Source of the DNA: Candidatus Methanogranum gryphiswaldense
GTDB taxonomy: Archaea; Thermoplasmatota; Thermoplasmata; Methanomassiliicoccales; Methanomethylophilaceae
Length of the DNA stretch: 64,000 nucleotides
Direction of reading: 5' to 3'
Assembly (NCBI GenBank): GCA_019262145.1
Contig: CP076745.1
Span: forward strand, 431,093-495,092
Numbering within the stretch: the stretch's first letter is position 1; every line of letters begins with the position of its first letter. The translations under genes were made by a program, and so were the position numbers. A model generated the notes under the pieces. The model was given only the letters and a program-made list of their open reading frames with translations, searched no databases and had not been told where the DNA came from. Positions 33,840-46,009 of this stretch are shown here, piece by piece.

Positions 33840-34133
33840 ATGTGGTTTCTTATGACAATGATAGCCGCTGTGTGTACCACTGCGGTTTATCTGATTTGGC
33901 CTAAGGCTAAGGAATACAGAGTGGATCTCCTTGTACTGATGCTTTGGGGACTGACAGTATGTCTGTTCATCGATCATTCGATAGGATATATCCTCGACGG
34001 AGGACATGAACTGGATGAGTACTTCGATGTCAGCATAGATGCGGTGATAATCGGCTTCTTGATGCTGATCCCAATATATTCAGTATGGGAATTGTATATT
34101 TTGATCAAAAAGACAAAAGAGGAGTATGCGTGA
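33840..34133 (+). CDS. Small membrane protein, paralogue of next gene
   Basis: 97 residues with three hydrophobic segments (about 1-20, 28-48, 68-88). The second ends in 'LFIDHSIGYILDGGHELDEYF', an acidic/histidine-rich membrane-edge stretch that could bind a divalent metal. The next protein has 'LLVEHIIHNEIV' at the matching place and the same segment order, so the two are distant paralogues. A gagg ribosome-binding site precedes ATG 33840, and the gene overlaps the next by 8 bp. Family not recognised. Its place ahead of cobalt transport genes suggests, but does not show, a metal-related role. Confidence 0.68.
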   Translation: MWFLMTMIAAVCTTAVYLIWPKAKEYRVDLLVLMLWGLTVCLFIDHSIGYILDGGHELDEYFDVSIDAVIIGFLMLIPIYSVWELYILIKKTKEEYA

Positions 34134-34476
34134 TAATATGGCATGTTTTTTAGTAATGGCAGCGACTGCAACGGTAACTACGGTATTCAGAAAGAAGATA
34201 CCTGAGAAATGGCACATCAACTGGTTCAACATAATGGCATGGGGTGCATGTCTGGCATTGCTGGTCGAGCACATAATTCATAATGAAATCGTTCCTTGGC
34301 CGCCGTTCTTCACGGCGATGTCCAGCTCTGGAGATTTCCATCAGATGTTGGTGGAGATGTTGCAGATCGGGGTCCCGATGCTCATTAGCGTGACATTGAT
34401 CTGGCTTGCGGCGGTTCTTATCTACAATAAGATAACAACCCCGAGCAGTGAGAAGATCGAAGCACCTGTAGCTTGA
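34126..34476 (+). CDS. Small membrane protein, paralogue of previous gene
   Basis: 116 residues (112 if ATG 34138 is used) with three hydrophobic segments. 'NIMAWGACLALLVEHIIHNEI' parallels 'VLMLWGLTVCLFIDHSIGYI' in the preceding protein, with a conserved acid-His pair. A further histidine lies in 'SGDFHQMLVEML'. The ends are short and soluble. A GAGGAG site just upstream supports ATG 34126. The overlap implies co-translation, and a strong terminator follows, so the pair is its own two-gene unit. Confidence 0.68.
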   Translation: MRDNMACFLVMAATATVTTVFRKKIPEKWHINWFNIMAWGACLALLVEHIIHNEIVPWPPFFTAMSSSGDFHQMLVEMLQIGVPMLISVTLIWLAAVLIYNKITTPSSEKIEAPVA

Positions 34477-34703: not shown

Positions 34704-35381
34704 ATGCATATAATGGAAGGATATCTGCCGTGGGAATGGTGTTTGGTATGGTTTATCATCGCAATACCGTTCTTGTTCTTCGGCGCAAAGAAAATAATAA
34801 AGATCGTAAGGGAGCATCCCGAGCAGAAGATGACCGTAGCTCTTTCAGGAGCGTTCATATTTTTATTGTCATCTCTTAAATTGCCGTCCGTGACCGGGTC
34901 CAGTTCTCATCCGACTGGAACAGGTCTTTCAACCGTTCTTTACGGTGTCGCGTGCACATCGTTTCTATCGATCATAGTTCTGATATTTCAGGCACTCTTA
35001 TTAGCTCATGGCGGCCTCACAACACTTGGAGCGAATGTCGTTTCAATGGGTATCTTCGGTCCGGCATGTGGTTTCGGAGTCTGGTATGTTTTAAGGAAAA
35101 AGGCGCACGTCAGTATTCCAGTAGCTATGTTCTGCACAGCGGCCATTGCAGATTTCATGACCTATGTAGCAACTTCATTCCAGCTTACACTCGCATACCA
35201 TGATGTAGGGTTTGCAACTGCATTCACTGAGTTCCTTACGACATTTGCGATCACCCAGATCCCATTGTCCATAGTGGAGGGAATAATATTCGCAATGTTT
35301 GCAATGTATCTCATGAACAATAAGCCTGAGATATTCGGGGAATCGGTCGGAGAAGAGAAGGTCAATTCGGAGGTATGTTGA
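34704..35381 (+). CDS. cbiM: Cobalt ECF transporter substrate-capture subunit CbiM
   Basis: 225 residues, about seven TM segments. The N-terminal 'MHIMEGYLP' supplies the amino group and histidine that coordinate Co(II), and the conserved 'SSHPTGTGLSTVLYG' loop supplies a further histidine. It is followed by cbiN only (1-bp overlap), with no CbiQ or CbiO in this unit. CbiMN pairs are known to retain some cobalt uptake without the ATPase module, or they may borrow the CbiQ/CbiO of the next operon. Protein sequence is very close to the CbiM part of the fusion at 36018, so this is a duplication. Confidence 0.93.
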   Translation: MHIMEGYLPWEWCLVWFIIAIPFLFFGAKKIIKIVREHPEQKMTVALSGAFIFLLSSLKLPSVTGSSSHPTGTGLSTVLYGVACTSFLSIIVLIFQALLLAHGGLTTLGANVVSMGIFGPACGFGVWYVLRKKAHVSIPVAMFCTAAIADFMTYVATSFQLTLAYHDVGFATAFTEFLTTFAITQIPLSIVEGIIFAMFAMYLMNNKPEIFGESVGEEKVNSEVC

Positions 35382-35728
35382 TGGAAAAGAAAAATCATAA
35401 ATATGTTTACATCGCGGGATTTGGGATAATCGCACTGTTGGTGTTATGCACGTTGGCGATCGGTGCTAACAATGGTTCCGAATTCGGCGGATCGGACGAT
35501 CAAGGTGGCAGTGTCATCGAGGAAGTAAGCGATAGTTTCGATGGGCCTTGGTGGAATGGCATCTATGGTGATTATGAGATCCCCGGAGAGACCGAGAGCA
35601 TGTTGTTTGCTCTGCAGGCAGCCATTGGAGCGATAATTATCGGATTTTTCATCGGATATGTTTATCGTGGAAAGCGTGACGAGAAGATCAATTTGAAATC
35701 TGAGAAGGAAGACAAAGTAAAAGAGTGA
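35381..35728 (+). CDS. cbiN: Cobalt transporter auxiliary subunit CbiN
   Basis: 115 residues: two TM helices (about 7-27 and 75-95) around an extracytoplasmic loop with 'EFGGSDDQGGSVIEE' and 'GPWWNGIYGDYEIP', characteristic of CbiN. CbiN assists metal loading into CbiM. ATG 35381 overlaps the cbiM stop (TGATG) with GGAGG at good distance, so the earlier ATG 35375 is less likely. The charged C-terminal tail is Lys/Glu-rich. Confidence 0.9.
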   Translation: MEKKNHKYVYIAGFGIIALLVLCTLAIGANNGSEFGGSDDQGGSVIEEVSDSFDGPWWNGIYGDYEIPGETESMLFALQAAIGAIIIGFFIGYVYRGKRDEKINLKSEKEDKVKE

Positions 35729-36017: not shown

Positions 36018-37838
36018 ATGCACATAATGGAAGGATATCTACCGTGGGAATGGTGCGTCGTATGGTACGCGATAGCTCTGCCTGTATTGATCTACGGAGC
36101 ATGGAAGATAGTAAAGATCGTCCGTGAACATCCTGACCAGAAGATGATAGTGGCTCTTTCCGGAGCATTCATCTTTCTTCTATCTTCTTTGAAATTGCCA
36201 TCTGTGACAGGTTCCAGTTCTCATCCTACGGGAACTGGTCTTTCCACTGTACTTTACGGTGTTGCCTGCACTTCATTCCTATCTGTTATCGTTCTGTTGT
36301 TTCAGGCCCTTCTTCTGGCACATGGCGGCCTCACTACGCTTGGTGCAAATGTCGTGTCGATGGGCATAATCGGTCCCTTCGTGGGATTTGCAGTATGGCG
36401 TCTTCTCAGAGGTCCGGTCGGAATGAAAATAGCCACTGCGATGTTCTTCACCGCTGTGGTTGCCGACATGGTGACATACATATTCACATCATTCGAATTG
36501 GCACTCGCTTATCCTGGAACGGATTTTTTCAATTCTTTCATCGAATATCTCAGCGTCTTTGCGGTGACACAGATACCGCTTGCAATAATCGAGGGAATAA
36601 TATTCTCAATGTTCGCCGTATATCTGGCAAATAACAGGCCAGAGGTATTCGGCGATATCACCGAGAAGGATCTTATTACTAAAGATAAACGTAAAAAGGT
36701 ATCTTCCAGAAGGATATATTTTGCAGGATTTGCGGTTATTGCATCCATTGTGGTGGTCGCACTTGTATATGGTTTGATGACCGGTGCGGATTTCGGAGGT
36801 ACAGATGATGCAGGCGGGAGTATAATCGATGCTTCTGGAACATTCGACGGCCCATGGTGGAACGGCCTCTTTGGAGATTTTGAATTATCGGATATTCAGG
36901 AGAAGTTGTTATTCCTTCTTCAGGGCATTATTGGACTTGCCGTTATAGTGTATTTCTTGAATCATGTTAGAGTTTCAAGGAGGAGGGCGCAGGGACTTCC
37001 GACAGGTAAGCGCGGAGGCGTCTCGGAGCAGGTCCAAATGGACACTCTCGCATATAGTTCCAGAATGGTGGGATGGTCTCCTTTGGGTAAGATGTTCCTC
37101 ATTCTTTCACTGATCGTGGTGGGATTATTGACGAACAGCATTATCGTGCCTGTTTGCACTTTGATCATAGGTCTGATCCTCATGGCCTATTCTACAAATT
37201 TCAAGATCCCATCGTTGATAGCTCTGGCAATCGGTGAAGCGATCCTTATCATGATCATCGGATGCGGCATGATATCGATAATGGGAAAGACATCAGACCC
37301 AGCCCTATGGGATACGAATATACTTTGGTTCCATATCCACATGACAGAGGCCAGTTTCAATCAGGCTTGGTTGGTATTTTTAAGGGCTATTGCAGGTGTG
37401 ACCTTGATGTTGTCATTTGCGACCTCTACCCCGATACCTCATCTGGCACAGGCATTGCGTCAGATAAGGATACCAAAGGAGATCACGGAGATCATGGTCC
37501 TCATATACAGGTATTCTTTCCTTCTTCTCGAAAGGATGCAGACAATGAGGTCTGCGGCCGATTGTCGTCTGGGATTCGCGGGATTCATAAGGTCCTTCAA
37601 GACCACCGCGGGTATAGCGATCGGCGTGTTCTCATCATCTATGGAGATCGGAGATAAGGCACAGTGCGCATTGGATTGCAGGAATTATTCCGGTACATTC
37701 CCTGTATTCAGGGTCCCACGCAAGATATCTGTTCCATGGGTGATATTCTCGCTCATACTGGCTGTTGTATTGTTAGTGTTCGGATTGTATTCGGTCGGTT
37801 GGATCAATATGTCCGATGTATTCTTCGGTAAGGTGTGA
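36018..37838 (+). CDS. cbiMNQ: CbiM-CbiN-CbiQ fusion, cobalt ECF transporter
   Basis: 606 residues joining three normally separate subunits: CbiM (1-212, 'MHIMEGYLP' and 'SSHPTGTGLS' intact), CbiN (231-318, 'FGGTDDAGGSII' and 'GPWWNGLFGDFEL'), and CbiQ, the T-component (about 335-606). CbiQ keeps the two coupling-helix arginine motifs in altered form ('SAADCRLGF' and 'ALDCRNYSG'). A charged linker (213-230) joins M to N, and a basic linker ('RVSRRRAQGLPTGKRGG') joins N to Q. Two CbiO genes follow directly. The ORF is intact and the stop overlaps the intergenic start of cbiO, so the fusion is real in this assembly. Confidence 0.93.
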   Translation: MHIMEGYLPWEWCVVWYAIALPVLIYGAWKIVKIVREHPDQKMIVALSGAFIFLLSSLKLPSVTGSSSHPTGTGLSTVLYGVACTSFLSVIVLLFQALLLAHGGLTTLGANVVSMGIIGPFVGFAVWRLLRGPVGMKIATAMFFTAVVADMVTYIFTSFELALAYPGTDFFNSFIEYLSVFAVTQIPLAIIEGIIFSMFAVYLANNRPEVFGDITEKDLITKDKRKKVSSRRIYFAGFAVIASIVVVALVYGLMTGADFGGTDDAGGSIIDASGTFDGPWWNGLFGDFELSDIQEKLLFLLQGIIGLAVIVYFLNHVRVSRRRAQGLPTGKRGGVSEQVQMDTLAYSSRMVGWSPLGKMFLILSLIVVGLLTNSIIVPVCTLIIGLILMAYSTNFKIPSLIALAIGEAILIMIIGCGMISIMGKTSDPALWDTNILWFHIHMTEASFNQAWLVFLRAIAGVTLMLSFATSTPIPHLAQALRQIRIPKEITEIMVLIYRYSFLLLERMQTMRSAADCRLGFAGFIRSFKTTAGIAIGVFSSSMEIGDKAQCALDCRNYSGTFPVFRVPRKISVPWVIFSLILAVVLLVFGLYSVGWINMSDVFFGKV

Positions 37839-37840
37839 TC

Positions 37841-38989
37841 ATGGTTTCGGAATTCATCTTCGAGACCAAGGGATTGGTGCATGCATACAACAACAGCAAG
37901 AAGGATTCCATAAAGGACATCAGCATAAAGATAAGAAAGGGAAAGAAAACGATCCTTCTGGGTGCAAACGGAACAGGAAAGTCCACTTTGTTCTATCATT
38001 TCAACGGCGTCTTCAAACCAAAGGAAGGTTCGGTTTATTACAACGGTGAACCGCTAAGTTATGAGAAGGAGGACCTCAAGAAACTTCGTTCAGAGGTTGC
38101 GGTGGTGCTACAGAATCCCGACGATCAGATATTTTCTGCCACGGTGGAAGAGGACGTCGCATTCGGTCTTCTGAATATGGATATGCCTCACGATGAGGTG
38201 GATAAGCGCATAGATGAGGTACTTTTCATCGTTGGGTTATCGGATTGCAGGATGAAACCAACTCAGCAGTTATCTTATGGACAGAGGAAGAGGATAGCGT
38301 TCGCGGGCGCATTGGCCACAAGACCGAAGGTACTGATACTCGATGAACCGACGGCAGGGTTAGACCCGCAGATGGCACAGGAGATCATGGAGATCGCAGA
38401 TCAATTGCATCATCTGGGCACAGACGTGATAATCTCCACCCATGATGTAGACCTGGCCTATGCTTGGGCTGACGAGATACACGTCCTTCGCAATGGTACT
38501 TTGGTATATTCTGGCGATTCTGAGGGATTCTATTCTGATCCGGTCCAGGTATCAATGTCAGGATTGATGCCACCGTCAATGTTCGCCATAAATGTGAACA
38601 TTGCTGCCGTGGATGGAAGACATTCAGATCCTTACCCGCGTACAAGGGCACAACTTCTTAGCAAGATGTCCTCAAAAGATGTCAAAACGGGTACGGTATT
38701 CACAATGTCCGTGGTGGATTTCATTGATCAAGAAATGGTCGACAAGATATTGCAGAAGGCAGGGGATAATGCTGCGGTAGGAATATTCGGTACGGACGCA
38801 AGGAAGTTGGCATTCGAGGCCGGATTGAGACTGGATTATGTTTTCAACGGAGTGGAGAATTGCATAATAGAAGCTCTTCTTGGGAGCAATGCAGTGATAA
38901 TACACGACAGTTCTGTCAAGGATATGATCATACAAAAGATATCCGATATCAGAAAATTCGGTGTCAATATTTGCACGGATGGTGACTGA
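37841..38989 (+). CDS. cbiO: Cobalt ECF transporter ATPase CbiO, first copy, extended
   Basis: 382 residues, about 100 longer than a typical CbiO. The ATPase core has Walker A 'LLGANGTGKST' (39-49), Q-loop 'VLQNPDDQIFSATVEEDVAFG', signature 'LSYGQRKR', Walker B 'VLILDEPTAGLD' and the switch 'ISTHDVDLA'. After 'MPPSMFAIN' comes an extra domain of about 120 residues containing 'GIFGTDARKLAFEAGL' and 'YVFNGVENCIIEALLG', shared with the second CbiO. ATG 37841 is used; GTG 37835 would overlap the fusion gene. The two ATPases probably form a heterodimer under the CbiQ domain. Confidence 0.92.
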   Translation: MVSEFIFETKGLVHAYNNSKKDSIKDISIKIRKGKKTILLGANGTGKSTLFYHFNGVFKPKEGSVYYNGEPLSYEKEDLKKLRSEVAVVLQNPDDQIFSATVEEDVAFGLLNMDMPHDEVDKRIDEVLFIVGLSDCRMKPTQQLSYGQRKRIAFAGALATRPKVLILDEPTAGLDPQMAQEIMEIADQLHHLGTDVIISTHDVDLAYAWADEIHVLRNGTLVYSGDSEGFYSDPVQVSMSGLMPPSMFAINVNIAAVDGRHSDPYPRTRAQLLSKMSSKDVKTGTVFTMSVVDFIDQEMVDKILQKAGDNAAVGIFGTDARKLAFEAGLRLDYVFNGVENCIIEALLGSNAVIIHDSSVKDMIIQKISDIRKFGVNICTDGD

Positions 38990-38991
38990 GT

Positions 38992-40146
38992 TTGGAAGAA
39001 TACATCCTTGAAACAAAGAAACTTTCCTTCTTTTACAAGGGGCGGGAAAAAGCAGCTCTTGAAAATATCGATATCAAGATAAAACGTGGTGTGAAGACCG
39101 TGCTTCTCGGAGCGAACGGAGCTGGAAAATCAACACTGTTCTATCATTTCAACGGCGTATATGAGCCATCCACAGGTCTCGTATATTATGACGGTAAACC
39201 TATGAGTTACAGGAGAAAGGCCTTGAGGAAACTTCGTTCTGAGGTGGCCGTCGTTCTGCAGAATCCCGATGACCAGATATTCTGTTCAACGGTCGAGGAG
39301 GATATTGCGTTCGGTCCTAAGAACATGGGGTTATCTGAAGAGGAGATAGGAGATCGTGTAGATGAGGCACTTTTTCAAACGGGTATGACCATGTTGAGAA
39401 AACAGGGAACACTCAGGTTGTCTTATGGACAGAGGAAAAGGCTCATACTGGCGGGGGCGATAGCCATGAGGCCGAAGCTGCTCATACTTGATGAACCGAC
39501 TGCTGGATTGGATCCACAGATGGCCCATGAGATCATGGAATTGGCAGATCAGTTGCATCATATGGGCACGACAGTCGTCATATCTACGCACGATGTGGAT
39601 CTGGCCTATGCTTGGGCCGATGAGATCAATGTTCTGCGCATGAGTAAACTCATATATTCTGGTAATTCTGAAGAATTCTATGCAGATCCAAAACTTGTGC
39701 ATATGGCAGGTTTGATGCCGCCATCCATGTACAGCATAAACAAGAATTATGCCATTATGGTCTCTGGTAAGGACATGCCCTATCCAAGGACCCTGCCCGA
39801 ACTTGTCAGTAAGGTGTCGAAAGAAAAGAAGGTGCCGGGGAAGCTAGTTATAATTTCGGTCAAGGATTCATTGACAGAAGAGGATATGGGGCATGCCAAG
39901 GATCTCGCAGGTGATGTACGCATCGGTGTATACGGTACGGCAGCCAGAAAGGCAGTTTTCAGAGGAAAGTTGTTCTCAGATTACGTATTCAACGGTATCG
40001 ATAATTGTCTCATCGAGAATGTCAAGGGCAACAATTCCATACTATGTTGTGAGGATCGGATGGTAGGGATCGTTCTTGATAGATTGAAGCGGCTCGATGA
40101 ATTCGGATGTTCTGTAGAATCCGAGATAATCGATCTCGGGAATTGA
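38992..40146 (+). CDS. cbiO2: Cobalt ECF transporter ATPase CbiO, second copy, extended
   Basis: 384 residues, same organisation as the first copy: Walker A 'LLGANGAGKST', 'VLQNPDDQIFCSTVEEDIAFG', 'LSYGQRKR', 'LLILDEPTAGLD', then the same C-terminal extension ('GVYGTAARKAVFRGKL', 'YVFNGIDNCLIENVKG'). The start is TTG 38992, 2 bp after the upstream stop; the N-terminus 'MEEYILETKKLSFFYKG' matches the family. Nucleotide identity to the first copy is high in the core and lower in the extension. End of the cobalt operon. Confidence 0.92.
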   Translation: MEEYILETKKLSFFYKGREKAALENIDIKIKRGVKTVLLGANGAGKSTLFYHFNGVYEPSTGLVYYDGKPMSYRRKALRKLRSEVAVVLQNPDDQIFCSTVEEDIAFGPKNMGLSEEEIGDRVDEALFQTGMTMLRKQGTLRLSYGQRKRLILAGAIAMRPKLLILDEPTAGLDPQMAHEIMELADQLHHMGTTVVISTHDVDLAYAWADEINVLRMSKLIYSGNSEEFYADPKLVHMAGLMPPSMYSINKNYAIMVSGKDMPYPRTLPELVSKVSKEKKVPGKLVIISVKDSLTEEDMGHAKDLAGDVRIGVYGTAARKAVFRGKLFSDYVFNGIDNCLIENVKGNNSILCCEDRMVGIVLDRLKRLDEFGCSVESEIIDLGN

Positions 40147-41635: not shown

Positions 41636-41878
41636 TCAACCACTATTTTATGAATATAAATGTATAAAGACATCCAATTGTACGTAATTCATTTTTTGAA
41701 ATTGTAAGAATCATTCTTTTGTTTGTGTTGGCTCTATTTATCGTGTTTTGTAATTGTTGAAGAGAATCGATCGAGTGGATGGGTATTAAATACGTTACAA
41801 TGGTGTGTCTTTGTTAATAAATCTCGTCATATCAGGCCATTCCCGATATTGAACAAAGATATACTCAGAGGCATTCAT

Positions 41879-44800
41879 ATGGTCAATCCAAAAAAAGGCA
41901 CGGTAGTTAGATCTTCATCCTTTACATCAGGCAGAAAAAAAGCAATGGTGTTTCTTGTTGCACTAATTTCTTGTGCTGTTTTTGCCAATGTTTTGATCGA
42001 TGATAGTGATGTTTCGTCAGCAGATGATTCTGCAGGAAGCATATTCGATGTTGATGGTGTGGAATATAAGGTGATAAGTGATTCGAATGTAGAAATAGTG
42101 GACATTTCTGATGATTTGTCAGCTCTTACAATAAATTCTACAGTTACGAATACGACATGGGAATGGTATCATTGGGTAAGTAAAACTTACAACATAACAA
42201 GTGCTGCGGACGATGCTTTTGTTTACGGGGAGAGTCTCACTTCAATTACTGTTTCAGGAAATACCAACTTCTCTTCTGCTGATGGGATCCTGTACAATTC
42301 TAGCGGAAGTGAATTATTATGTTATCCAATGGCAAAGGCCGGGACATCATACAGTATTCCTACTACGGTCAGTGGCATTGGGCCATATGCGTTCTGTGGA
42401 TGCGATAATCTGGAGACCGTGACTATTGGGTCAAATGTGAATTCGATGGGAGATTATGCATTCTATAACTGCGAGAATATCGAGACCGTGACCATCGGTT
42501 CTGGTCTGACTACGATAGGTAACTATGCATTCTACGACTGTAATGATATGGGTACATTGATCGTGGATTCGAACATCACCACCATAGGCAGCTATGCATT
42601 CTACGAATGTGAGGATCTCTACACAGCCAAAATAGGCTCTGACGTGGTCTTAGAAACGGGAATGGTCAAAATAAGTCCAAGCGTAACGATGATCGGTAGT
42701 TATTCTTTCAGTGAATGCGACAAGATCCAAAATCTGCAAATCGGTGTGCCGATCGGTACCAGCGCAATAACGATCGGTGACAATGCCTTCTACGATTGTG
42801 ACGATCTGACGAATGTTGTCATGGGATGCAGTGTCCAGATCATAGGGGACGATTCATTCCACAATTGTGTCAGTTTGAAGGCTGTCGTTATCCCCACCAG
42901 TGTTTCAAAGATCGGCAGTCACGCATTCATATCCACATCGTTGAAGGCGGTAGCGATACCGTCCACCACCAATGTGAGTTCTTCGGCTTTTGATCTTACA
43001 CTTCTAGGCGGTCCCTGGGAGATATACTACGGTGGAGACCATATAATGGCTGCCGTATTGAGTTGCGGTTCCACTTATGATCTGGGTAGTGACAATCACT
43101 ATACTTTGACAGTCGTTCCTGAGACAGGATATGGCATCAACAGCTACGTCTATACAGGTGATTCCTCGGACATCAGCAGAGTTGGAGATACCAACGTTTG
43201 GAATATCTCCTCAGGTTCGATGAGTGCAGGCGGGCACAAGGTCACGTTCACTACAGGAGTATTGAGTTACAACATAACCACGAGCGTTCAGAACGGTACC
43301 ATCTCTCCAAGTGTGACCTTGAATTATGGAGGTAGTGCCACGATCGCATATTCCTCATCAATAGGTTACCATTTAGTTTCTGTTATTGTCGATGGGGTCC
43401 TGGTGACGGGGCACGATTCTTCTTACACATTTAACAATGTGACAGCAAACCATACTATCTCTGTTGTTTATTCTGTTGATACCTATGTAGTGACCTTGGA
43501 CAAGGATGCCCATGTCTCCAATATATCATATTCATTGAATGATGGGGCCTTACAGAATTATACCGTGCCATTAAGTTTGAAATATGGTGATAAACTGAGC
43601 ATAGTTGCCACGACAGATCCAGGATATCATTTCGTGCAATGGGCGACAGGTGTTACGGCCAATCCGTTAGTGATCGCTAGTGTAAACGCAAACATCAATT
43701 ATGTCGCGACATCGTCAATAGACACGTTTACTGTTACCTTGAATAAAGATGCCAATATCTCCAGCATCGTGTATACTTTGAACGGTGGTACGACGCAAAC
43801 CTATGTTTCACCAATTAGTGTCAGCCATGGTGACAATCTCAATTTGTACGCAACATCTGGTACAGGATATCATTTCGTGCAATGGGCGACAGGTGTTACG
43901 GATAATCCACTGACGATCCATGATGTCACAGCTAATATCACATATACCGCGACATCTTCGATTGATACCTTCACTGTAACTCTCAACAAAGATGCTCACG
44001 TATCTTCAATGGCCTATACTTTGAACGGCTCTTCACATAATTACACTGTGCCTTTCACCGTTAATTACGGTGACGTTCTGATCCTTACAGCTTCATTGGA
44101 TACCGGGTATTTCTTTGTCCAATGGGCGACAGGTGTTACGGCCAATCCATTGACGATCAGCTCTGTTAACTCCAATATCAATTATACGGCAACCTCATCA
44201 AAGGAGGTTTTGACTGTTACGTTGAATAAGGACGATCATATTTCTGGCATCACTTATACAGTGAATGGTGGAGCATCACAGACGTATACTGCACAATTCA
44301 CTGTTAATTACGGTGATGATCTCAAGATCACCGCCTCAGTTGATCCAGGATATAATTTCATACAATGGGCACCAGGTGTAACTTCCAATCCACTGACGAT
44401 AACAGACGTTACTTCCAATATTAGCTACACTGCGATATCGCATGTAGAAAATTTGACCATCACAGTAAGCAAGGATGCTCACGTCTCCAGTATAACATAT
44501 ACAGTGAATGGCGGAGCATCACAGACCTATATTGCGCCTTTCACTGTGGATTACGGTGACAATGTTCTGATAACAGCTAATATGGAGACTGGGTATTATT
44601 TCCTTGCATGGTCCGGTACTATTGTCAGTACGACCAATCCGTTGCCGATAAATGTGGTAACGGACGTGAACATAAGTGCAACATCTTCGATGCATGTATT
44701 CACTATCTCATTGGATAAGGATGCCCACGTTTCCAGTATAACGTATAAGGTAAATGGTGGAGCCTCACAGACATACACTGCACCCTTCAATGTGAGTTAC

Positions 44801-46009
44801 GGTACCAGTCTTCAAATAACAGCCAATATGAATGCAGGATATCATTTCACTTCTTGGTCTGGTACTATTGTCAGCACGGTCAATCCGTTGACGATCTCCA
44901 GTGTTGATAGTAATGTAAATATAACGGCATCATCGTCAATAGATGTCTTCACAGTTACATTAAGCAAAGACGCTCACATTTCCAATATTACTTATACTTT
45001 GAATGGCGGAACATCAAAGAATTACACTGTACCGTTCACTGTGAATTACGGTGACAATCTGACAATCAAGGCAGTCGCAGATTCTGGTTATTATTTTGTC
45101 CAGTGGGCGTCTGGGGTTACAGACAATCCATTGACAATCACAGATATTACTTCCAACATAAGCTATACTGCGACATCATCAATGGATGCTTTCACGGTCA
45201 CATTAAGCAAGGATTCTAACATCTCCGGTATAACTTATACTTTGAATGGCGGAGTGCCACAGAACTATACTGTACCGTTCGCTGTGGATTACGGTGATGA
45301 TCTGACGGTTACCGCGATAATGAATTTTGGCTACAATTTCAATACTTGGTCAGGTACAATTACAAGTACGGATAATCCCCTATCAATAGATCTGGTATCG
45401 AATGTAAGTCTGATAGCATCTGCCAGTCCAGATACAAGTACAGTAACATTCGTGGGTAATTATTCAGAGTCCACGTATTCTGTGAGCATAACAGAGACAT
45501 ATGGAACTGCATATGTTTTGCCAGAGGACGATCCGACGAGAGACGGATATAATTTTGCAGGGTGGTATACTTCGTCTACCGGAGGCACCCAGGTCACCAG
45601 TCAGACAGTTGTGTACACTACGGGGGATAAAACCCTGTACGCACATTGGACAGCGCATTCTGGCGGTAATGTGGACATAGGTAAGATAATACCCTGGCTC
45701 ATAGCATTGTTTGCGATATTGGTGATTGCTGCATACCTCATAAACAGATATCTAATTGGAAAGAGAAAGTACAAAGTGATGTTCGATGCGAACGGAGGTA
45801 CTGGAAAGATGAAGGACCAGTCCTTTATGTTCGATTCGTCTCAGGGCATATCCAACAATGCTTTCACAAGACCGGGATACGCATTCATGGGGTGGTCAAC
45901 AACGCCTACTGGGTCTGTTATATACAGTAATGGACAGAGTGTTGAGAATCTCATTCCTGTCGGTGAGAAGAGTATAACGCTGTATGCAGTGTGGGAACCA
46001 GGCAACTGA
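41879..46009 (+). CDS. Giant surface protein: BspA repeats, eight InlB-like repeats, TM
   Basis: 1376 residues. Signal peptide at about residues 18-42 after a basic N-terminus. Residues about 110-380 are BspA-type LRR_5 units ('TIGSYAFYECEDL', 'TIGDNAFYDCDDL'). Then come a bacterial beta-repeat and eight divergent InlB B-repeats of about 80 residues (DNA 43487-45440, period about 240-243 bp; each opens like 'FTVTLNKDAHVSSITYTLNGG'), and a Listeria-Bacteroides module ('YNFAGWYTSSTGGTQV'). A TM helix ('IIPWLIALFAILVIAAYLI') is followed by another Listeria-Bacteroides module ('YAFMGWSTTPTGSVIY') at the very C-terminus, which by topology would be cytoplasmic. ATG 41879 is chosen because it precedes the basic signal region; the leader is long. 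Likely adhesin. Confidence 0.8.
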   Translation: MVNPKKGTVVRSSSFTSGRKKAMVFLVALISCAVFANVLIDDSDVSSADDSAGSIFDVDGVEYKVISDSNVEIVDISDDLSALTINSTVTNTTWEWYHWVSKTYNITSAADDAFVYGESLTSITVSGNTNFSSADGILYNSSGSELLCYPMAKAGTSYSIPTTVSGIGPYAFCGCDNLETVTIGSNVNSMGDYAFYNCENIETVTIGSGLTTIGNYAFYDCNDMGTLIVDSNITTIGSYAFYECEDLYTAKIGSDVVLETGMVKISPSVTMIGSYSFSECDKIQNLQIGVPIGTSAITIGDNAFYDCDDLTNVVMGCSVQIIGDDSFHNCVSLKAVVIPTSVSKIGSHAFISTSLKAVAIPSTTNVSSSAFDLTLLGGPWEIYYGGDHIMAAVLSCGSTYDLGSDNHYTLTVVPETGYGINSYVYTGDSSDISRVGDTNVWNISSGSMSAGGHKVTFTTGVLSYNITTSVQNGTISPSVTLNYGGSATIAYSSSIGYHLVSVIVDGVLVTGHDSSYTFNNVTANHTISVVYSVDTYVVTLDKDAHVSNISYSLNDGALQNYTVPLSLKYGDKLSIVATTDPGYHFVQWATGVTANPLVIASVNANINYVATSSIDTFTVTLNKDANISSIVYTLNGGTTQTYVSPISVSHGDNLNLYATSGTGYHFVQWATGVTDNPLTIHDVTANITYTATSSIDTFTVTLNKDAHVSSMAYTLNGSSHNYTVPFTVNYGDVLILTASLDTGYFFVQWATGVTANPLTISSVNSNINYTATSSKEVLTVTLNKDDHISGITYTVNGGASQTYTAQFTVNYGDDLKITASVDPGYNFIQWAPGVTSNPLTITDVTSNISYTAISHVENLTITVSKDAHVSSITYTVNGGASQTYIAPFTVDYGDNVLITANMETGYYFLAWSGTIVSTTNPLPINVVTDVNISATSSMHVFTISLDKDAHVSSITYKVNGGASQTYTAPFNVSYGTSLQITANMNAGYHFTSWSGTIVSTVNPLTISSVDSNVNITASSSIDVFTVTLSKDAHISNITYTLNGGTSKNYTVPFTVNYGDNLTIKAVADSGYYFVQWASGVTDNPLTITDITSNISYTATSSMDAFTVTLSKDSNISGITYTLNGGVPQNYTVPFAVDYGDDLTVTAIMNFGYNFNTWSGTITSTDNPLSIDLVSNVSLIASASPDTSTVTFVGNYSESTYSVSITETYGTAYVLPEDDPTRDGYNFAGWYTSSTGGTQVTSQTVVYTTGDKTLYAHWTAHSGGNVDIGKIIPWLIALFAILVIAAYLINRYLIGKRKYKVMFDANGGTGKMKDQSFMFDSSQGISNNAFTRPGYAFMGWSTTPTGSVIYSNGQSVENLIPVGEKSITLYAVWEPGN
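43487..45440 (+). repeat. Eight tandem InlB-like coding repeats
   Basis: Eight in-frame units of about 240-243 bp starting near 43487, 43730, 43973, 44213, 44459, 44700, 44947 and 45193. Units have diverged (unlike the near-identical array at 58.5-60.4 kb), with units 5 and 6 carrying a variant ending ('SGTIVST.NPL') also used in unit 8. Confidence 0.75.

Follow-up and report, generated by a model that had tools for sequence, protein, structure and literature searches.

A natural CbiM–CbiN–CbiQ fusion in Candidatus Methanogranum gryphiswaldense, predicted to form, as a single chain, the membrane module of a group I cobalt ECF importer

Introduction

In ECF transporters, S-units in general dock on a matching T-component. 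Among the group I cobalt systems (CbiMNQO), the Rhodobacter capsulatus CbiMQO complex has been solved (5x3x, 5x41), and the S-component binds the metal through its two N-terminal residues (PMC6828968). The auxiliary subunit CbiN associates weakly and fails to co-purify, yet CbiM plus CbiN constitutes the minimal transporting unit (PMC7689651); the position of CbiN in the complex is unsolved because its binding is too weak for co-purification. Nickel systems are marked by NikN and NikK/NikL, not by CbiN (PMC2667541). Joined S and auxiliary parts (CbiM–CbiN or NikM–NikN) are represented by the NCBIfam family NF005598 (323 aa, 'cobalt transporter CbiM').

Here we describe a locus in a 64,000-nucleotide stretch of DNA (the window; contig CP076745.1, positions 431,093 to 495,092) from Candidatus Methanogranum gryphiswaldense, a Methanomassiliicoccales methanogen whose genome is a single contig of 1,516,968 bp. 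The locus is like group I CbiMNQO in its four component families and M–N–Q–O gene order, and like R. capsulatus CbiMQO in its metal-site residues, CbiQ motifs and predicted M and Q folds, but M, N and Q form one chain, an extra free M–N pair is present, and each of two CbiO genes carries an added domain of ~130 aa. M and N are joined in the same order as in NF005598, whereas the window chain adds CbiQ and scores 88.8 bits against the family cut-off of 401. Similar three-part chains of ~600 aa occur in a Methanomicrobiales clade including genome G1150 and in Ca. Bathycorpusculum termitum and its like, but at different tree positions; the Bathycorpusculum chain is 34% identical to that of the window, and the Bathyarchaeal CbiO lacks the C-terminal domain. 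A further chain, NikM-(PDGLE)-NikQ-like, in genome G132 (locus L106, 3755-5419, + strand, 554 aa) also joins S, auxiliary and T parts, but is divergent and probably of a nickel-type branch, its middle part being PDGLE-like (E 0.03, below cut-off) and not CbiN. It lies head-to-head with a CbiM–CbiN–CbiQ fusion of the same genome, giving two parallel three-part fusions at one locus.

Results

The fused gene and its predicted topology

The gene cbiMNQ (Table 1) is a single stop-free frame of 606 codons, and the domain matches and conserved motifs bear out the original prediction that CbiM, CbiN and CbiQ are fused with intact landmarks from each. By Pfam, CbiM covers residues 2-209, CbiN 239-303 and CbiQ 353-559, and order-specific profiles, built from relatives, set the wider limits of the table for M, N (94 bits) and Q (386 bits). 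The CbiM part passes TIGR00123 (279.5 bits, cut-off 184) and the CbiN part passes PF02553 marginally (25.1 bits, cut-off 25), with 47% identity to the free CbiN2 across 78 aa, while the CbiQ part passes PF02361 (100.7 bits, cut-off 25) and falls slightly below TIGR02454 (108.6 against 111.8). The fusion keeps M1-H2-I-M-E-G and GSSSH69PTGTG of CbiM, the GG-T-DD-GG...FDGPWWNG loop of CbiN, and the motifs of CbiQ, the last of which are CRLG and CRNYSG. When 11 M–N–Q fusions are aligned, His2, His69, the CbiN DD pair and the CbiQ motif residues are invariant, and the linkers vary in both length and sequence.

Table 1 Features of the fused cobalt-transporter locus, in window coordinates
Feature	Position	Strand	Basis
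cbiM2, free second CbiM, 70-74% identical to fused CbiM	34704..35381	+	Pfam, pairwise comparison
cbiN2, free CbiN overlapping cbiM2	35375..35728	+	PF02553 4e-15
cbiMNQ, CbiM-CbiN-CbiQ fusion	36018..37838	+	Open frame; Pfam/NCBIfam domains; own profiles; AF2
CbiM (S-component) domain, residues 1-210, free N-terminal Met1-His2	36018..36647	+	PF01891 4e-52
M-N linker, 21 residues, net charge +3, predicted cytoplasmic	36648..36710	+	Hydropathy/charge
CbiN domain, residues 232-319, two TM helices and acidic extracytoplasmic loop	36711..36974	+	PF02553; identity to CbiN2
N-Q linker, 20 residues, net charge +4, predicted cytoplasmic	36975..37034	+	Hydropathy/charge
CbiQ (T-component) domain, residues 340-589	37035..37784	+	PF02361 1e-28
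In-frame ATG (Met341), GGAG 9 nt upstream, candidate internal start for free CbiQ	37038..37040	+	Sequence reading
cbiO1 ATPase, overlaps fusion stop codon, ~130-aa C-terminal DUF7839-like domain	37835..38989	+	TIGR01166 241.6 bits, cut-off 211.8
cbiO2 ATPase, same C-terminal domain as cbiO1	38992..40146	+	TIGR01166 244.1 bits
CbiO C-terminal DUF7839-like domains	38558-38986 and 39712-40143		Profile comparison

The two TM helices of the CbiN part span residues 235-253 and 297-315. Lys/Arg residues number 9 against 5 Asp/Glu in the M–N loop, 1 against 9 in the CbiN loop and 8 against 2 in the N–Q loop, and hydropathy and charge together fit an arrangement in which the C-terminus of CbiM is inside, CbiN runs in–out–in and the N-terminus of CbiQ is inside. 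The AF2 model of the full chain (pTM 0.80, pLDDT 82) is confident for M and Q and of low confidence at residues ~211-340, most of the N region having a pLDDT of ~50-60. The modeled parts match the solved CbiMQO with TM scores of 0.86 (M to 5x3x_M) and 0.80 (Q to 5x3x_Q), and CbiM 5x3x_M is the nearest solved chain to the fused CbiM domain (E 2e-60).

Distribution of M–N–Q chains

Altogether, 22 M–N–Q chains were found, comprising 12 in Methanomassiliicoccales, 4 in Bathyarchaeia and 6 in the G1150 clade of Methanomicrobiales. By reading of the open frames, 82 loci of the order, a count that includes the free CbiM2–CbiN2 pair of the window, divide into 12 with M–N–Q (one of them, L059, cut by a contig end), 25 with M–N fused and Q separate, 41 with all three genes separate and 4 partial. 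The earlier statement that CbiM–CbiN fusions are known thus agrees with the 25 loci that this one order contributes. Outside Thermoplasmatota, a profile scan of genome contigs gave one fused locus, that of Ca. Bathycorpusculum termitum, and further searches added three more Bathyarchaeal genomes with the fusion (73-80% identity), whose sister genomes are unfused, together with the six genomes of the G1150 clade. No fusion covered by one match was present in 348 Bacillota genomes, a scan that fusions split over two matches could escape. The 21 other loci rule out that the architecture is unique to this genome, and three candidates (G200, G010 and Kurthia) were set aside after direct reading of the open frames gave separate genes. 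In a genome of the same genus (G031), only the first 32 CbiM codons are present, at a contig end, and are uninformative on fusion.

The M+N+Q tree of the order contains 7 changes of the M–N–Q label, 4 of them forced by well supported branches, and the joint M+Q tree of all lineages contains 9, of which 7 are forced by supported branches; these changes are gains or losses and do not give the number of gains. G056, the nearest relative, has M and N as separate genes, so that the fusion of the window is separate from that of the clade of G071. The CbiQ of G056 (L052 4612-5703, − strand; L127 5041-6132) has an N-terminal extension of ~90 residues that includes a strong TM helix and, as in the window gene, the start Met at the usual place has been lost; descent of this helix from CbiN is not supported, its similarity to CbiN (25) being no better than the shuffled mean (25.2). 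As a separate observation, several CbiN ORFs of Bathyarchaeia are ~170 aa long and match the CbiN profile in two stretches (L150, L158, L163, L222, L224-L226 and L228-L232), which suggests an insertion of ~20-25 residues or a partial duplication.

Occurrence in three archaeal lineages makes the architecture fairly common among archaea. The database search thus bears in part on the original prediction, which allowed that the architecture might prove already common and characterised: 21 other loci were found, whereas its characterisation was not. No paper describing an M–N–Q fusion was found in the open-licence literature, and a genome survey of the order lists cbiOMQN without using the word 'fused'.

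The second CbiM–CbiN pair

A genome-wide search found two CbiM and one CbiQ/EcfT, namely the fused CbiQ. The S-component families ECF_trnsprt (PF12822) and BioY were also searched and none was found in the genome; with regard to these two families, it lacks the several S-components for different substrates that define group II ECF transporters. The sole sharing candidate found is the adjacent free CbiM2–CbiN2 pair. The supposition that fusion bars CbiQ from being shared is not supported, as the pair is present without any other CbiQ in the genome. CbiM2 is 80% identical to the CbiM of G056, higher than to the fused CbiM (74%), and clusters with the G056 protein (support 99/79), although the alternatives for the timing of the CbiM duplication survive the AU test (p 0.22 and 0.24). 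The fused CbiM evolves faster, with a branch length of 0.45 against 0.08 for CbiM2.

Upstream of cbiM2 are two overlapping small membrane-protein ORFs (33840-34133 and 34126-34476, + strand) that match nothing in Pfam/NCBIfam and have no relative among the loci compared. Further upstream, hemL, hemC, cobA and hemD-like tetrapyrrole genes were recognized by sequence reading. On the other side of the locus, at 41723-46009 (+ strand), the sequence reads as a 1428-aa ORF resembling a large surface protein, with leucine-rich-type repeats, many tandem repeats of ~70 aa and a C-terminal hydrophobic helix.

The C-terminal domain of CbiO

The C-terminal domain of the CbiO subunits is conserved across the order and, to a lesser degree, in Methanomicrobiales. 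It has no Pfam/NCBIfam match at cut-off, DUF7839 being matched by 14 of 32 members at a best E of 6e-4. It is predicted as a compact alpha/beta fold (pLDDT 94.5), for which no PDB match was found and Foldseek gave none below E 0.001. In Bathyarchaeia, a winged-helix protein encoded divergently beside cbiM (L150 3081-3911, L158, L163, L208 and L214) carries a C-terminal DUF7839 (E 3e-17 to 2e-19), and hhalign aligned the CbiO C-terminal set with the DUF7839 set of these regulators at 93% probability (E 3e-7), compared with 0.2% for their N-terminal part. From this profile similarity, regulator and transporter ATPase may share a ligand-sensing domain, a candidate sensor of cobalt or corrinoid.

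Discussion

The results described above reveal a genuine M–N–Q join that evolved more than once in archaea; it is a little-noticed version of an established transporter and does not amount to a new type of machine. With CbiM bearing Met-His, CbiN, CbiQ and adjoining CbiO ATPases all matched at the locus, the product is likely to be a naturally occurring single-chain form of the membrane module in a group I cobalt ECF importer, the benefit of which would be to hold the weakly bound CbiN at 1:1. In the predicted mechanism, Co2+ would be captured by the fused CbiM through its free N-terminal Met1/His2 and His69, with the CbiN hairpin placed against CbiM and its acidic loop above the metal site. 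The cytoplasmic side would hold the C-terminus of CbiM, the two linkers and the N-terminus of CbiQ; there the CbiO1–CbiO2 pair would be coupled through CbiQ to what would be a working single-chain S–N–T unit. Retention of CbiN by the two cytoplasmic linkers, 1:1 with CbiM and CbiQ, is the likely benefit. M–N–Q is a topologically easy fusion, because the N-terminus of CbiM must stay free and the remaining ends are all cytoplasmic; recurrent fusion of adjacent genes in a fixed order can, however, also be nearly neutral. Transport of Co2+ by the fused system is predicted from the presence of CbiN and the nearby tetrapyrrole genes.

It might be argued that a sequencing or assembly error merged three separate genes, as the M and N genes are separate in the nearest relative (G056, L052/L127, Ca. 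Methanoplasma glyptotermitis), but such an artefact is unlikely because the fusion sits in a single-contig genome, and the further evidence makes it highly improbable. In unfused relatives CbiQ begins MSEQVQMD..., and the window gene has Val (gtc) at the position of that start Met; gtc differs from ATG at two bases, so that one wrong base would not restore separate genes, a GTG start excepted. The gtc codon speaks against the missed stop or start that the original prediction had considered possible. The same architecture also occurs at 21 further loci, those of two other single-contig genomes among them (G071, 1,488,669 bp; G1150, 1,804,962 bp). The chain might alternatively not be a plain 1:1:1 unit, with initiation at Met341 or proteolysis of the linkers supplying extra free CbiQ and the fusion acting as a regulatory or partial tether. 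The GGAG motif 9 nt upstream of the Met341 codon, the basic linkers of low model confidence and an unpaired second S-unit (CbiM2–CbiN2), which would gain from free CbiQ, speak for this; nevertheless we regard it as unlikely, as this is the only one of 12 fusions with a start and an SD-like motif at the N–Q junction, a weak GTG/GGTG instance in L106 aside, and the bases at the site code for the conserved residues SEQVQM in unfused relatives, in which the Met341 ATG is likewise conserved as coding. The fixed 1:1:1 ratio originally proposed holds for the covalent chain, and only if neither cleavage nor re-initiation takes place.

As the fused CbiQ is the only one in the genome, CbiM2–CbiN2 is energised just through it or works alone. 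On the former alternative, the pair would be a second S-unit that displaces the fused CbiM in docking to the tethered CbiQ/CbiO; on the latter, it would import Co2+ without CbiQ. That the pair is a slow importer on its own, independent of CbiQ/CbiO, leaving the fused CbiQ private as originally supposed, is a possibility of some weight, though we do not favor it: S-units generally function by docking to a matching T-component, CbiM2/CbiN2 lie directly upstream of the cbiQ–cbiO genes, and in relatives a single cluster holds M, N, Q and O, whereas on the other side no T-component other than the fused CbiQ is present in the genome, and CbiM and CbiN have been described as the minimal proteins for cobalt transport (PMC7689651). 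Divergence of the fused copy toward another metal such as nickel, with CbiM2–CbiN2 retaining cobalt, appears improbable. The longer branch of the fused CbiM would agree with it, and methanogens require nickel as well, but the metal-site residues and the CbiN loop are identical between the fused copy and CbiM2–CbiN2. Moreover, the fused copy has CbiN, not the NikN and NikK/NikL of nickel systems (PMC2667541). Returning to the single-chain cobalt importer, we speculate, tentatively, that the tethered and the free S-unit compete for the one tethered T-component, and that the DUF7839-like domain of CbiO senses cobalt or corrinoid and turns transport off.

These chains have a practical bearing on annotation, since fused genes are easily tallied as 'cbiM only', concealing CbiN and CbiQ in surveys. 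As a fixed 1:1:1 complex, a natural M–N–Q chain could make the structure solvable with CbiN in place. The DUF7839 link points to a possible sensor of cobalt uptake in archaea. M–N–Q chains also probe whether every transport cycle requires the S-component to leave the T-component, and the present genome, in which two S-units face a single CbiQ, probes whether a tethered CbiQ can serve a free S-unit; if the proposed competition is true, tethered against free S-units would provide a natural test of whether the S-component departs from the module during transport.
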